Position numbers and translations under genes: made by a program. The notes under the pieces were generated by a model. That model was not told the DNA's origin and ran no database searches. It saw only the letters and a list, made by a program, of their open reading frames with translations. Below are positions 26,637-30,640 of a stretch of 64,000 bases of DNA, one piece after another. The DNA is from Haliscomenobacter hydrossis DSM 1100 (GTDB lineage: Bacteria > Bacteroidota > Bacteroidia > Chitinophagales > Saprospiraceae), in contig NC_015510.1 of assembly GCF_000212735.1 (NCBI RefSeq), forward strand, positions 7,937,001 through 8,001,000. The letters are read 5' to 3'. Positions within the stretch are counted from its first letter, which is position 1. Every line of letters starts with the position of its first letter.

Positions 26637-27029
26637 ATGAAATTTCTTTTGCTTTTATTGTTTCTGGTAATTGGGTTCGTAGGCGGTTACGCTCAGGCCT
26701 CTTCCAAGAAACTCAAGGCGGGTGTGGTGGTACATACCGTTTATTTTTGGCTCAAAAACAAGGGCAACCAGCAAGACCTGGAAGCGCTCTATCGGGGCGT
26801 AAAAACCCTGATTCCCATCAAGGAAATCCAAACTGCCTACGTTGGTACACCGGCTGATACCAAAGATCGTCCGGTAATCGACGGCTCTTATGACTTATCC
26901 ATCACCTGGGTGTTCAAAAATACAAAGGACCAGGATGCGTATCAAATCCATCCCATTCACCTGAAGTTTGTGGAAGAGAATAGTCATCTTTGGGAGCGGG
27001 TGATTGTGTACGATGCGCTTTCTAAGTGA
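26637..27029 (+). CDS. Secreted Dabb-family (stress-responsive A/B barrel) protein
   Basis: A signal peptide (LLLFLVIGFVGGYAQA) precedes one Dabb domain. It is recognisable from VVHTVYFWLKNKGNQQDLEA at its start, the central YVGTPADTKDRPVIDGSYD and the final HLKFVEENSHLWERVIVYD. Dabb proteins form dimeric ferredoxin-like barrels; the enzymatic role here is unknown. Export of a Dabb protein is common in Bacteroidota. TAAATTTG at 26604-26611 matches the -7 consensus upstream, but no good -33 box was found. A GAAAAG-type short repeat begins at its stop codon. Confidence 0.82.
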   Translation: MKFLLLLLFLVIGFVGGYAQASSKKLKAGVVVHTVYFWLKNKGNQQDLEALYRGVKTLIPIKEIQTAYVGTPADTKDRPVIDGSYDLSITWVFKNTKDQDAYQIHPIHLKFVEENSHLWERVIVYDALSK

Positions 27030-27942: not shown

Positions 27943-28638
27943 CTATTCTTTGATCTTCAAAATAAAGCCCACCTTAAACACATTTTCAATGCTAATCCTG
28001 GGGTCATTGCGCAGCATTTTGCGCAAGCGCGAAATAAATACGTCAAAACTCCGCCCCAGGAAATAGTCTTTTTCGCCGTAAATCCGCTCTACAGCGTCAT
28101 CGCGGCGCAGGATGTTGTTTTGGTGTAAACACAGTAGACGGAGCACTTCATTTTCTTTTTCGGTAATGCGTTCGATCTGATTTTGGTACACCAGTTCTTG
28201 TTTGGTGTAATCGAAGTAATAATCTCCGATGCTGAACTGAGCTTGGGGTTCTTCTACCGTCTGGTGCAGACTACGCCGCAAAATTACCGCAATTTTGCAC
28301 AGCAATTCTTCTTCCTCAAAGGGTTTGGTGATGTAATCTTCTGCTCCCAGTGCATATCCTTTGAGGCGATCTTCCTTCAAGACCCGGGCGGTGAGGAATA
28401 AAAAAGGAATCTGGGTATTTTCCAATCGAATTTGTTTGGCCACTTGAAAACCATCGGTGTCGCCCAACATCACATCCAGAATACACAAATCGAAGGCTTG
28501 TTTTTTGAATTGTTCCAGGCCCGTTTGTCCATTGCGGGCCAATTTGACGCTGTAACCTTCTGATTCCAGCAATTCCATGAGCAAAAAACCCAAACTCAGG
28601 TCATCTTCTACTATCAGTACATTTCCTTTATGGGCCAT
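27943..28638 (-). CDS. OmpR-family response regulator
   Basis: The receiver domain occupies residues 1-120, with acidic residues EDD at 11-13, phospho-acceptor Asp55 in CILDVMLGD, a conserved TAR and KPF. It is followed by a winged-helix effector domain of the OmpR/PhoB type (block ITEKENEVLRLLCLHQN and the recognition region SFDVFISRLRKMLR). It is encoded 6 bp after its partner histidine kinase, so the two are co-transcribed. OmpR-type regulators bind direct repeats of about 11 bp. Three such repeats lie upstream of the kinase gene at 29941-29973. Confidence 0.93.
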   Translation of the reverse strand: MAHKGNVLIVEDDLSLGFLLMELLESEGYSVKLARNGQTGLEQFKKQAFDLCILDVMLGDTDGFQVAKQIRLENTQIPFLFLTARVLKEDRLKGYALGAEDYITKPFEEEELLCKIAVILRRSLHQTVEEPQAQFSIGDYYFDYTKQELVYQNQIERITEKENEVLRLLCLHQNNILRRDDAVERIYGEKDYFLGRSFDVFISRLRKMLRNDPRISIENVFKVGFILKIKE

Positions 28639-28644
28639 CGGTGC

Positions 28645-29883
28645 TTATTTTAAAGGAAAACTCAGGGAAAAACAGGTTCCGTGTTTGTGTTCACTGGCTA
28701 CTGCAATGTTGCCCTTGTGCAAATCCACAATTTTTTTGACATAAGCCAGCCCCAAACCAAACCCACTAAAACGTTTGGCCGTTGCTTCTTCACCCCGGTT
28801 GAACTCTTTAAAAACGCTGGACAATTCATGTTCACAAATGCCCACACCATTGTCGCGGATAGCCACCTGGATTTGATTGTCTCTACTTGTCTCCAGCAAA
28901 ATATGGATATTGGGGGTCGTATCGCAATACTTCAAGGCATTGTCGATGAGGTTGCGGAACGCGTTGCGCAGGTGCAGTACATCGCCGTACATAGGGGGTA
29001 AACTGCCCCGCACTTCCAGGTCCACCACTGCTTCTTTTTCGCGAATGGAGGGCGTGAGGTCTTCGATGATTTCACGGATCAAATTTTCCAAATCCAGACT
29101 TTGGCGTTGTAAGGGGTTTTTATTGAACTCCAAACTGGCCATTTGTAAAAACCGCTCAATCTGTTGAATCAACTGATTGCTTTCCTTGGTGATGACTTGT
29201 AAAACCTGATCGTCTTTTAATTCCGGTTTTTTGCGGCCCAATAATCCGGCAGCCAATTTAATGTTTGTCAGTGGCGTTTTGAATTCATGCGCCATGTGGT
29301 TGAAAAAATCGAGATTTTGATCCGCCAGGCGCTTTTGCTTCAAGAGGTAATAACTGGCCGCAAAAAAGACCAGCAAGATGGCACCCAATATCAATGCCGA
29401 ACTCCCGATCATCACATTCATGCGCTGCAGGATGTAATTTTGTTTGGTCGGAAAATTGAGGGTCAGGCGGCGGGTATCATCGGTTACCAGTGGATCTAGG
29501 GCACAGGAGAATGCAGTAGCCTCTTCTGCTGTGCCAAATGGACTTGGTTTGACCACATTGACCGAATAAGGCAAGTTGATGTTGTAAAAAGCCAGGGAGC
29601 GATCCAAGTTTTTGCGCAACTGAGAATCGCTCAGGATCATACTTTCGGGCACCATTTCTGCACAACAAGCCCCTTGGTTGTTGGCGCAAGTCATGACCAC
29701 CGTGCTTTGGGGTTCTTCCGCAGTGGTTTGCACGGCGTCACAAAGGGCCATGTCGACACGGTGCTCAAATTGCTCATCCAGCAATTCTCGCGAGTAGTTC
29801 ATCCAACGCACCTGGATGGCGATCAAACCTAGCAAAGCCAGGCATGCGGCGGCGATTACAATTTTTATTCGATTCGTTCTCAT
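28645..29883 (-). CDS. Membrane sensor histidine kinase with Cys-containing periplasmic domain
   Basis: Two helices (about residues 7-24 and 158-181) bracket a periplasmic domain of about 130 residues. The HisKA segment FFNHMAHEFKTPLTNIKLA contains phospho-acceptor His199. The ATPase domain shows the N box (LRNAFRNLIDNALKY), G1 box (IRDNGVGI) and G2 box (GFGLGLAYVKKIV). The periplasmic domain has cysteines at 66, 73, 74 and 127 (TCANNQGACCAEM), unusual for a sensor domain and suggestive of metal or redox sensing. It is upstream of the OmpR-type regulator by 6 bp and divergent from a Cys-rich secreted protein, the likely target. Confidence 0.93.
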   Translation of the reverse strand: MRTNRIKIVIAAACLALLGLIAIQVRWMNYSRELLDEQFEHRVDMALCDAVQTTAEEPQSTVVMTCANNQGACCAEMVPESMILSDSQLRKNLDRSLAFYNINLPYSVNVVKPSPFGTAEEATAFSCALDPLVTDDTRRLTLNFPTKQNYILQRMNVMIGSSALILGAILLVFFAASYYLLKQKRLADQNLDFFNHMAHEFKTPLTNIKLAAGLLGRKKPELKDDQVLQVITKESNQLIQQIERFLQMASLEFNKNPLQRQSLDLENLIREIIEDLTPSIREKEAVVDLEVRGSLPPMYGDVLHLRNAFRNLIDNALKYCDTTPNIHILLETSRDNQIQVAIRDNGVGICEHELSSVFKEFNRGEEATAKRFSGFGLGLAYVKKIVDLHKGNIAVASEHKHGTCFSLSFPLK

Positions 29884-29940
29884 ATCGTTGAAGCAAAAAT
29901 CTTTTGCAAAAAAACACCAAAAACTTCAGCAAAAGGGTAT

Positions 29941-29973
29941 TTTAACAGCCGTTTAACAAGTGAATAACAGCCG
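29941..29973. promoter_or_regulatory. Three exactly phased 11-bp direct repeats, likely OmpR-type operator
   Basis: TTTAACAGCCG, TTTAACAAGTG and AATAACAGCCG follow each other without a gap. The TAACA core is at 29943, 29954 and 29965. An 11-bp repeat period is the standard layout for OmpR/PhoB-type dimers. The site ends 28 bp before a -7 element (TACCTTTG, 30002-30009) for the Cys-rich gene and replaces the missing -33 box, as expected for an activator site. Confidence 0.7.
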
Positions 29974-30001
29974 AGAAACACCTCGGAGGCACTTGCCATG
30001 C

Positions 30002-30009
30002 TACCTTTG
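30002..30009 (+). promoter_or_regulatory. -7 promoter element of the Cys-rich gene
   Basis: TACCTTTG matches the Bacteroidota TAnnTTTG consensus and lies 68 bp before the ATG at 30078. There is no TTG at the usual -33 distance; the 11-bp operator repeats lie upstream instead. This suggests an activator-dependent promoter. Confidence 0.55.
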
Positions 30010-30077
30010 CATTGTTGAATAACCACAACACCGGTAGCTCAGCGGAACTGAGTGAATCTATTTAACCAATTAATCTC

Positions 30078-30488
30078 ATGCGTTACACATTCCTATTGCT
30101 GTTTGGCCTGATGTGCTTAGGCTTAAACACCATGAACGCCCAATCTTGTTGCTCCAAGGCCAGTACTGCTGCTGCCAATGTTTCTGAAAAGAAATGCGAC
30201 ATGAGCAAATCTACGGCCAGCGTTGCTAGCACCAATTGCCACGAGAAGGCAAGCACTGCCAGCACTGCCCAGGCCGCTGCATCTCCAGTTGGGGTATTTG
30301 TAAGTGGAGGTGTAACTTCTACTTCAACCAAGGCTTGTGACCCAAGTACTTGTGACCTCACCAACTGTGATCTGACCAAATGCGATCCAAGCAAGTGTGA
30401 TCCCAGCAAATGCCCAAAATCTGGCGCGATGAAGGCTTCTACAGCCAAAGCACCAGCTAAAACGGCAAAAGCAGTAACCTCGCTTTAA
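30078..30488 (+). CDS. Secreted Cys-rich protein with Cys-Asp pentad repeats (136 aa)
   Basis: The signal peptide ends near LNTMNAQ. The mature protein is rich in Ala, Ser, Thr and Lys and contains CC at 24-25, C40 and C54. A block follows in which cysteine recurs every five residues (87, 92, 97, 102, 107, 112), mostly as CD[PL][ST]x. Regular Cys spacing of this kind could bind several metal ions or form a disulfide ladder. The gene is divergent from the histidine kinase/response regulator operon and preceded by the phased operator, so it is probably that system's output. No known family is recognised. Confidence 0.75.
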
Positions 30489-30640
30489 CGAATTCGAGGG
30501 TTCGGGAGTTCGATGGTTCGAGGGTCTGGGAAAGTCTATATTTTATAGATGGGTTTAAGGATTTATTTTGGCTAAATCAAGTCAGATGTATTACTTTTGA
30601 CCCGACCCCAAACATTCGAACCCTCGAACCTTCGAACTTT
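30489..30640. repeat. Inverted TTCGAGGG/CCCTCGAA arms around the purC promoter
   Basis: AATTCGAGGGTTCGGGAGTTCG-type units at 30489-30530 are mirrored by CATTCGAACCCTCGAACCTTCG-type units at about 30611-30640. About 75 bp, including the predicted purC promoter, lie between the arms. The left arm begins at the stop codon of the Cys-rich gene and the right arm ends 3 bp before purC. The units are related to the GAACCCYC array at 21811. Confidence 0.8.
30567..30599 (+). promoter_or_regulatory. Predicted purC promoter
   Basis: TTTG at 30567-30570 and TACTTTTG at 30592-30599 fit the Bacteroidota -33 and -7 elements with 21 bp between them. The start of purC is 45 bp downstream of the -7 element. 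Confidence 0.55.

Follow-up and report, generated by a model that had tools for sequence, protein, structure and literature searches.

A conserved two-component unit of Haliscomenobacter hydrossis and its relatives, with a four-repeat operator, a divergent cysteine-rich exported protein and a leader RNA element

A 64,000-nt stretch of the chromosome of Haliscomenobacter hydrossis DSM 1100 (NC_015510.1; hereafter "the window", whose positions serve as coordinates throughout) carries the genes of a two-component system divergent from the gene of a small, exported, cysteine-rich protein. As judged from comparative sequence analysis, this locus is a real and well-conserved regulatory unit with an RNA element in its leader that has no match above threshold in Rfam. 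We consider it fairly probable that the sensor, the PhoB-type regulator, an operator of four repeats, the cysteine-rich output and a leader pseudoknot form one dedicated signalling switch with a single target.

The regulator gene (27943–28638, minus strand) encodes 231 residues with the receiver and winged-helix domains that define the OmpR/PhoB type (Pfam Response_reg, 1.4e-27; Trans_reg_C, 3e-12). At a distance of 6 bp lies the gene of the sensor histidine kinase (28645–29883, minus strand; 412 residues; HisKA, 1.1e-13; HATPase_c, 9.9e-25), in whose AlphaFold model two predicted membrane helices flank a periplasmic domain of about 125 residues with five cysteines between the helices. The open reading frame (ORF) of the exported protein (30078–30488, plus strand; 136 residues, 11 cysteines) is divergent from the kinase gene. 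The operator (29941–29984, plus strand) consists of four 11-bp direct repeats, with TAACA cores starting at 29943, 29954 and 29965 and a fourth in-phase core, AAACA, at 29976. The end of the third repeat is 28 bp from TACCTTTG (30002–30009, plus strand), a -7 element of the Bacteroidetes sigma factor, which is located 37 bp from the third core and lacks the TTG of a -33 box. The promoter consensus of the phylum is given as TTTG/TANNTTTG in PMC6847099, and a -7 consensus also in PMC9723704.

The coordinates that a preliminary description of this locus gave are all right, from the three TAACA cores to the 28-bp distance and the 6-bp gene gap, and the cysteines that it placed in the periplasmic domain of the kinase are indeed there. 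It overlooked the leader RNA element and the fourth repeat: the three contiguous repeats that it named are genuine, and the AAACA copy continues them in phase.

The conservation of the unit was assessed at increasing breadth. In a first sample of 60 genomes, own genome included, the cysteine-rich ORF was found by sequence search in seven and the kinase in 51 (E value 1e-40, paralogues counted). A divergent cysteine-rich exported ORF was present beside the kinase in three congeners (G001, G002, G004) and in G003, G018, G026, G027, G033, G008, G032 and G035, the kinases of the latter eight showing 32–44% identity to that of the window. Exact TAACA cores at 11-bp spacing are present in the gaps of all 11 loci, mostly three and never fewer than two (the number in G008 and G035). 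In G020 and G025 kinase and output are separated by other genes, and the array is retained on the output side. It should be added that in genus g17 (L058 of G020, L147 of G149) repeat-protein genes are inserted in the unit, operator and leader element being more than 1 kb apart. Scanning named genomes yielded 21 loci with 12 good sensor matches, six of them new (L066, L067, L070, L071, L072, L074), all with output and array; no such output was seen beside the kinases at L075–L083 (Flavobacteriales, Kapabacteria, Ignavibacteria and unplaced; 25–42% identity over all or part of the sensor).

In the family sample (398 genomes, 112 genera), a profile of 11 sensors recovered, at an E value of 1e-20, 100 places in 97 genomes and 48 genera. 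Upstream DNA was taken for all 100 kinases; one stretch was only 4 bp long, so 99 were scored. On the output strand, 166 TAACA pairs were spaced by 11 bp and 68 by 22 bp, with at most eight at any other spacing up to 45 bp, and the opposite strand had a single pair. A four-core array, called at a score of at least 16 of 20, occurred in 91 of 99 regions versus none of 99 shuffles (one per region, maximum score 15). The eight regions below 16 were those of G020 and G025, where the array is displaced, of G104 and G097, of second copies in G242, G088 and G285, and of G077, the last four belonging to paralogous or unclear kinases. The preliminary description had staked its reading on the repeats being conserved between orthologous loci, as they proved to be.

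The distance to the promoter is conserved as well. From the start of the third core to TAnnTTTG it is exactly 37 bp in 67 of the 91 array-bearing loci, 38 bp in two, 26 bp in one and 48 bp in one; the remaining 20 have no strict TAnnTTTG in the stretch read, many showing a near form, e.g. CACCTTTG, at about that place. When the -7 motif was relaxed to nAnnTTTG and the register could move by one repeat, 79 loci could be aligned, with the consensus TTTAACAgcTnnTTAACAAGTgnnTAACAgcTgnnaAACAGC-N19-TAnCTTTG. The ACA of the fourth repeat is conserved in 96–97% of them, and none of the 79 has a TTG in the -33 zone, 17–25 bp upstream, as had been noted for the window alone. By these alignments, the geometry is that of an activator replacing the -33 contact; since the fourth repeat occupies the position at which the absent box would lie, class II activation by the regulator would be expected. 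Together with the cysteine-rich outputs found at 81 of the 91 loci (see below), the array and its promoter distance strongly support the proposal that sensor, regulator, operator and output are one unit.

The window contains a single exact copy of the three-core pattern, as does the whole genome of 8,771,651 bases, and a switch with one target is therefore probable. With up to three mismatches, the window has eight sites versus 1.83 expected. Genome-wide, up to one mismatch gave three sites, two of them overlapping at this locus, and one site for a reversed control pattern, which had no exact site. Among the 60 genomes, 11 of 18 exact sites were at this locus, and the seven elsewhere compare with five for the reversed control. 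A broad regulon was rejected on the single exact site in the own genome and on the total of elsewhere-sites in the 60 genomes compared with that of the control; chance repeats were rejected on the pattern counts in genome and window and on the shuffled upstream regions.

Alternatively, the operator might be a site common to the widespread RprXY-type systems, the unit then being no more than another RprXY copy whose neighbour is unrelated to it. The best NCBIfam match of the regulator is RprY (NF051850), at 239.7 bits and thus below the cut-off of 370, and two TTAACA copies are located upstream of several of the paralogous kinases. The present clade differs by its four fixed repeats, its constant distance to the promoter and a divergent output conserved along with them, absent in the paralogues read, and we regard this explanation as improbable. 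Furthermore, regulator and kinase each fell under the cut-off of all 25 top NCBIfam models in their respective lists; the CzcR/SilR/CopR model TIGR01387 gave 128.2 versus 279.2 bits for the regulator, and the CzcS/SilS/CopS model TIGR01386 gave 111.6 versus 292.55 bits for the kinase. Upstream of paralogous RprX-type kinases at L023, L024, L028, L079 and L254–L256 we observed a shorter, often two-copy TTAACA site with some copies altered, which suggests an ancestral autoregulatory operator of RprY-type regulators. At L077, L078 and L080 (Kapabacterium, Ignavibacterium and an unplaced metagenome-assembled genome, MAG), kinases with TTAACATGTGCTTAACA upstream are divergent from a protein of about 300 residues with an SHxHGDH motif, which we take to be metallo-hydrolase-like.

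Comparison of the leaders revealed a hairpin, CTCAG-CGGNN-CTGAG, the stem of which changes in pairs. A covariance model was built from 12 sequences, the window's own among them. The best match in the own genome is the leader element at 30028–30058 (plus strand, 42.7 bits); the next (25.1 bits, 1.6e-4) lies in a long open frame and was dropped as chance. In Rfam no model exceeded its gathering score at 30028–30058, the only overlapping match being snoR11 (21.3 versus 50).

At an E value of 1e-3 the family search yielded 62 places in 60 of 398 genomes, and longer stretches were fetched for 52 of them; matches with E values above 0.001 were given no weight. Among the 42 places with E values up to 2e-5 (three in the training set), array copies and a kinase lie upstream in 41, the exception being G022, and the cysteine-rich ORF follows in 39, two others being cut by contig ends and that of G094 lying further on. 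Two of the ten weaker places (G248, G106) are genuine. The other eight, in seven genomes (1.7e-4 to 9.2e-4), have no array, kinase or cysteine-rich ORF and were dropped as chance; seven lie over open frames and that of G358 does not. In the order sample (396 genomes) there were matches in 18 genomes, one of them, G905, from another family: its core lies 37 bp from the -7 element, with a divergent kinase. It is the sole strong match in 20 genomes of its family and the only strong member outside the family of H. hydrossis, and as a MAG with 6% contamination it could represent a stray contig. A weak match in G892 lies in an open frame and was rejected. Nine matches among 395 genomes of the phylum outside the order were likewise dismissed as chance: each overlaps an open frame longer than 120 codons (a single one, of 159, at L201), and no cysteine-rich ORF follows any of them within 180 bases.

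The element lies at a median of 46 nt from the ATG (middle half 45–48, range 28–105, n=41), and the operator at a median of 61 from the element (middle half 56–76, range 37–258, n=39). As the distance to the start codon is kept better than that to the operator, the element probably influences translation, or the message close to its start. The phylum is described as one without Shine-Dalgarno sites, in which structure near the start tunes initiation (PMC6847099).

The hairpin loop can pair with the 5' flank. In the window, stem S2 is formed by CTCAG (30038–30042) and CTGAG (30048–30052), and stem S1 by CCG (30031–30033) and the loop triplet CGG (30043–30045), all on the plus strand. In an alignment of 52 element sequences, two of which (G022, G003) come from places away from the operator, all 260 cells of S2 are paired, as are 95.5% of the 156 cells of S1 (columns 16–18 with 4–6), the pairs of which were absent from the search model. 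The column pair 4 and 18 has CG 33 times, UA 8, GC 3, AU 1, UG 1 and other combinations 6 times, and the pair 5 and 17 has CG 40, UA 7 and UG 5. The S1 values for paired cells, for cells changed on both sides (19) and for the covariation score were each reached by none of 500 shuffles, and slid versions of S1 paired 13–72% of cells with 0–6 double changes. On a tree of 46 kinases (49 tried), the four variable base pairs had 2.5, 3.0, 2.9 and 3.0 concordant independent pairs and 0.0 discordant each; the control column pairs inspected had 0–0.5 and 0–1.6, correspondingly. With S1 of 3 bp, a first loop of 4 nt, S2 of 5 bp and a last loop of 2 nt, the dimensions fit the usual geometry of H-type pseudoknots. 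Covariation thus supports the pairing of a putative H-type pseudoknot.

Other results pull the opposite way. Of five measures for the RNA, two did not rise above the shuffles: the pairs changed on both sides were equalled in 256 of 500 and the further pair types in 123 of 500. For S1, the number of pairs with a double change was reached by 405 of 500 shuffles and that of pair types by 26, so that the former is unremarkable and the latter barely stands out; 72% of cells remain paired when S1 is slid by -3; no base pair is significant singly on the kinase tree. Of the 97 kinase genomes, 51 have the element, or 56 if five weaker matches are counted, and G003 and G022 carry it at a cysteine-rich gene that has no operator. 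The gene concerned in G003 (L060:1976–2386) is a second cysteine-rich gene, with a SAICAR synthetase gene next to it like that of the window, the kinase unit being on another contig.

CTCAG-N5-CTGAG is also a DNA inverted repeat, and a palindromic site for a second transcription factor would be expected to show paired changes too. Such a palindrome leaves unexplained that the asymmetric pairing of loop and flank (columns 4–6 with 16–18) also covaries; moreover, the element is downstream of the promoter, and its position varies less relative to the start codon than relative to the operator, which makes this explanation very unlikely. For the pseudoknot, in turn, a conserved leader RNA structure of the kind expected of riboswitches is present, and it is conceivable, albeit doubtful, that it represents a new minimal riboswitch class of about 22–26 nt sensing metal, cysteine or thiol in the cytoplasm. 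If so, one small cysteine-rich export protein would be gated twice, by a thiol-based periplasmic kinase and by a cytoplasmic RNA.

In the exported protein of the window, six of the 11 cysteines are spaced by exactly five residues (residues 87–112); a five-residue recurrence had been ascribed to the cysteines in general and holds for these six. A minisatellite origin alone was rejected for the pentads: Tandem Repeats Finder reported 15-bp arrays of 1.9 and 3.4 copies with 85% and 75% matches, and the ratio of nonsynonymous to synonymous substitutions (dN/dS) is 0.08–0.22 in five of six pairs of four congeners (two pairs with dS >1), i.e. under purifying selection. To call outputs, we required an ORF of 60–320 residues, a signal-like N-terminus and at least 4.5% cysteine. 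This filter accepted 81 of the 91 array-bearing loci; of the others, G027 has an ORF seen by eye, contig ends truncate the loci of G290, G181, G136 and G303, and five, all of genus g21, have none. In a control on 95 regions it accepted 80 observed, one shuffled and four opposite-strand sequences. Simple patterns separate two common designs: the cysteine pentads, to which the window protein belongs, and a helical design (C...GMT..EC). In the 76 sensors that were read, glycine at sensor position 48 accompanies the helical outputs (16 of 16) and cysteine there the pentads (26 of 28), the rest comprising 23 outputs of other design and nine with none counted. Common descent may explain this association.

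The cysteines of sensor and output are scarce together in one genus: the sensors of five g21 genomes have 1–2 periplasmic cysteines versus 3–8 in 67 sensors with a cysteine-rich output. We infer a thiol or metal link from these cysteines on both sides and their joint scarcity. Several points weigh against the favoured reading of the unit. The scarcity, being confined to one genus, is perhaps one event; g21 retains the array with a cysteine-poor output, so that the output need not be cysteine-rich (of two scanned, that of G368 passes TonB_C with 30.5 bits over a cut-off of 24.6 and that of G271 is below, with 21.3); sensor cysteine count and output cysteine density are only weakly correlated within the cysteine-rich systems (rho 0.21, p 0.08, n=67); and the flanks read showed no efflux, reductase or metal gene as a constant neighbour of the unit.

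The same unit could have as its output a disulfide-cross-linked structural protein of the envelope or sheath, with envelope assembly as the signal in place of metal or thiol stress. H. hydrossis grows in a sheath, and the outputs are of low complexity, rich in repeats and variable in length; that of G400 passes Pfam Pentapeptide (24.1 over 20.2 bits), the only one to do so among seven relatives scanned, of which G413 scored below (15.3), and the window output gave no match to this family (PF00805) at E values up to 1. The output is small, and the unit extends over 48 genera of the family, beyond the sheath formers known to us; we hold the structural role to be possible, at rather long odds.

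In the favoured scheme of a one-target switch, the kinase would read the state of the cell envelope through its small cysteine-rich periplasmic domain and, as known for the family, phosphorylate the adjacent PhoB-type regulator. Two phosphorylated regulator dimers would bind the four repeats, the last of which lies over the missing -33 place, and the regulator would act as class II activator of the divergent promoter, probably also tuning its own operon. The exported, low-complexity output would most likely serve as a periplasmic thiol or soft-metal buffer and, as CpxP or ZraP do, also reset the sensor. A second, post-transcriptional control step may come from the leader pseudoknot, which roughly half of the genomes have, that of H. 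hydrossis among them, and which mostly keeps one distance to the start codon.

Beyond the regulator, at 26637–27029, lies the gene of an exported-looking protein with a Dabb domain (stress-responsive A/B barrel), not seen in the flanks read of the congeners G001 and G002. Between the cysteine-rich and SAICAR synthetase genes (30493–30640), tandem copies of TTCGAGGG and TCGAACCC are arranged as an imperfect inverted pair, which may be a terminator or a small repeat element. A plasmid search for the output found none.

Because about 90 genomes reveal the operator, the promoter geometry and a probable single target, the signal to which this uncharacterised two-component system responds can be put to a direct test. 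The unit also adds a rapidly changing family of exported cysteine-rich proteins, a compact leader pseudoknot without above-threshold Rfam match, and a sensor domain without Pfam match (window member) or PDB sequence match at an E value of 1, for which the fold search was likewise empty (AlphaFold mean predicted local distance difference test score 77; best Foldseek E value 0.79). Among the papers listed from a literature that leaves out most subscription journals, none describes the unit or the RNA, which is not proof of absence.

The unit appears to work like CpxP-CpxRA or ZraP-ZraSR but, by the models tested, is a member of neither. With CpxP-CpxRA of E. coli it shares an OmpR-type regulator and a sensor whose genes diverge from that of a small exported protein, boxes made of short direct repeats, and a probable feedback, of which the divergent layout and the joint cysteine scarcity are the visible traits, whereas here the output is cysteine-rich and not of the LTXXQ type, the kinase gene comes first, there is apparently one target, and a leader pseudoknot is present. 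ZraP-ZraSR likewise has a divergent metal-linked exported protein and few targets, but ZraR is an NtrC-type sigma-54 activator and the present regulator is PhoB-type, with a housekeeping -7 box. Known binding sites of PhoB and OmpR also place 11-bp direct repeats where the upstream promoter box would be, the TAACA sequence and the Bacteroidetes -7 element being particular to this case. The leader element recalls preQ1 class I and similar small H-type pseudoknot regulators in size, topology class and position just before the start codon; in those, the 3' tail pairs with the loop, and here the 5' flank does so, in a stretch that has no Rfam match above threshold in the window. A cysteine-rich partner and a four-repeat operator are not known for RprXY, and the window regulator remains under the RprY cut-off (239.7 versus 370 bits). 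RprXY of Bacteroides and Porphyromonas (PMC3646045) provides the closest named regulator, and tandem TTAACA stands upstream of several paralogues.

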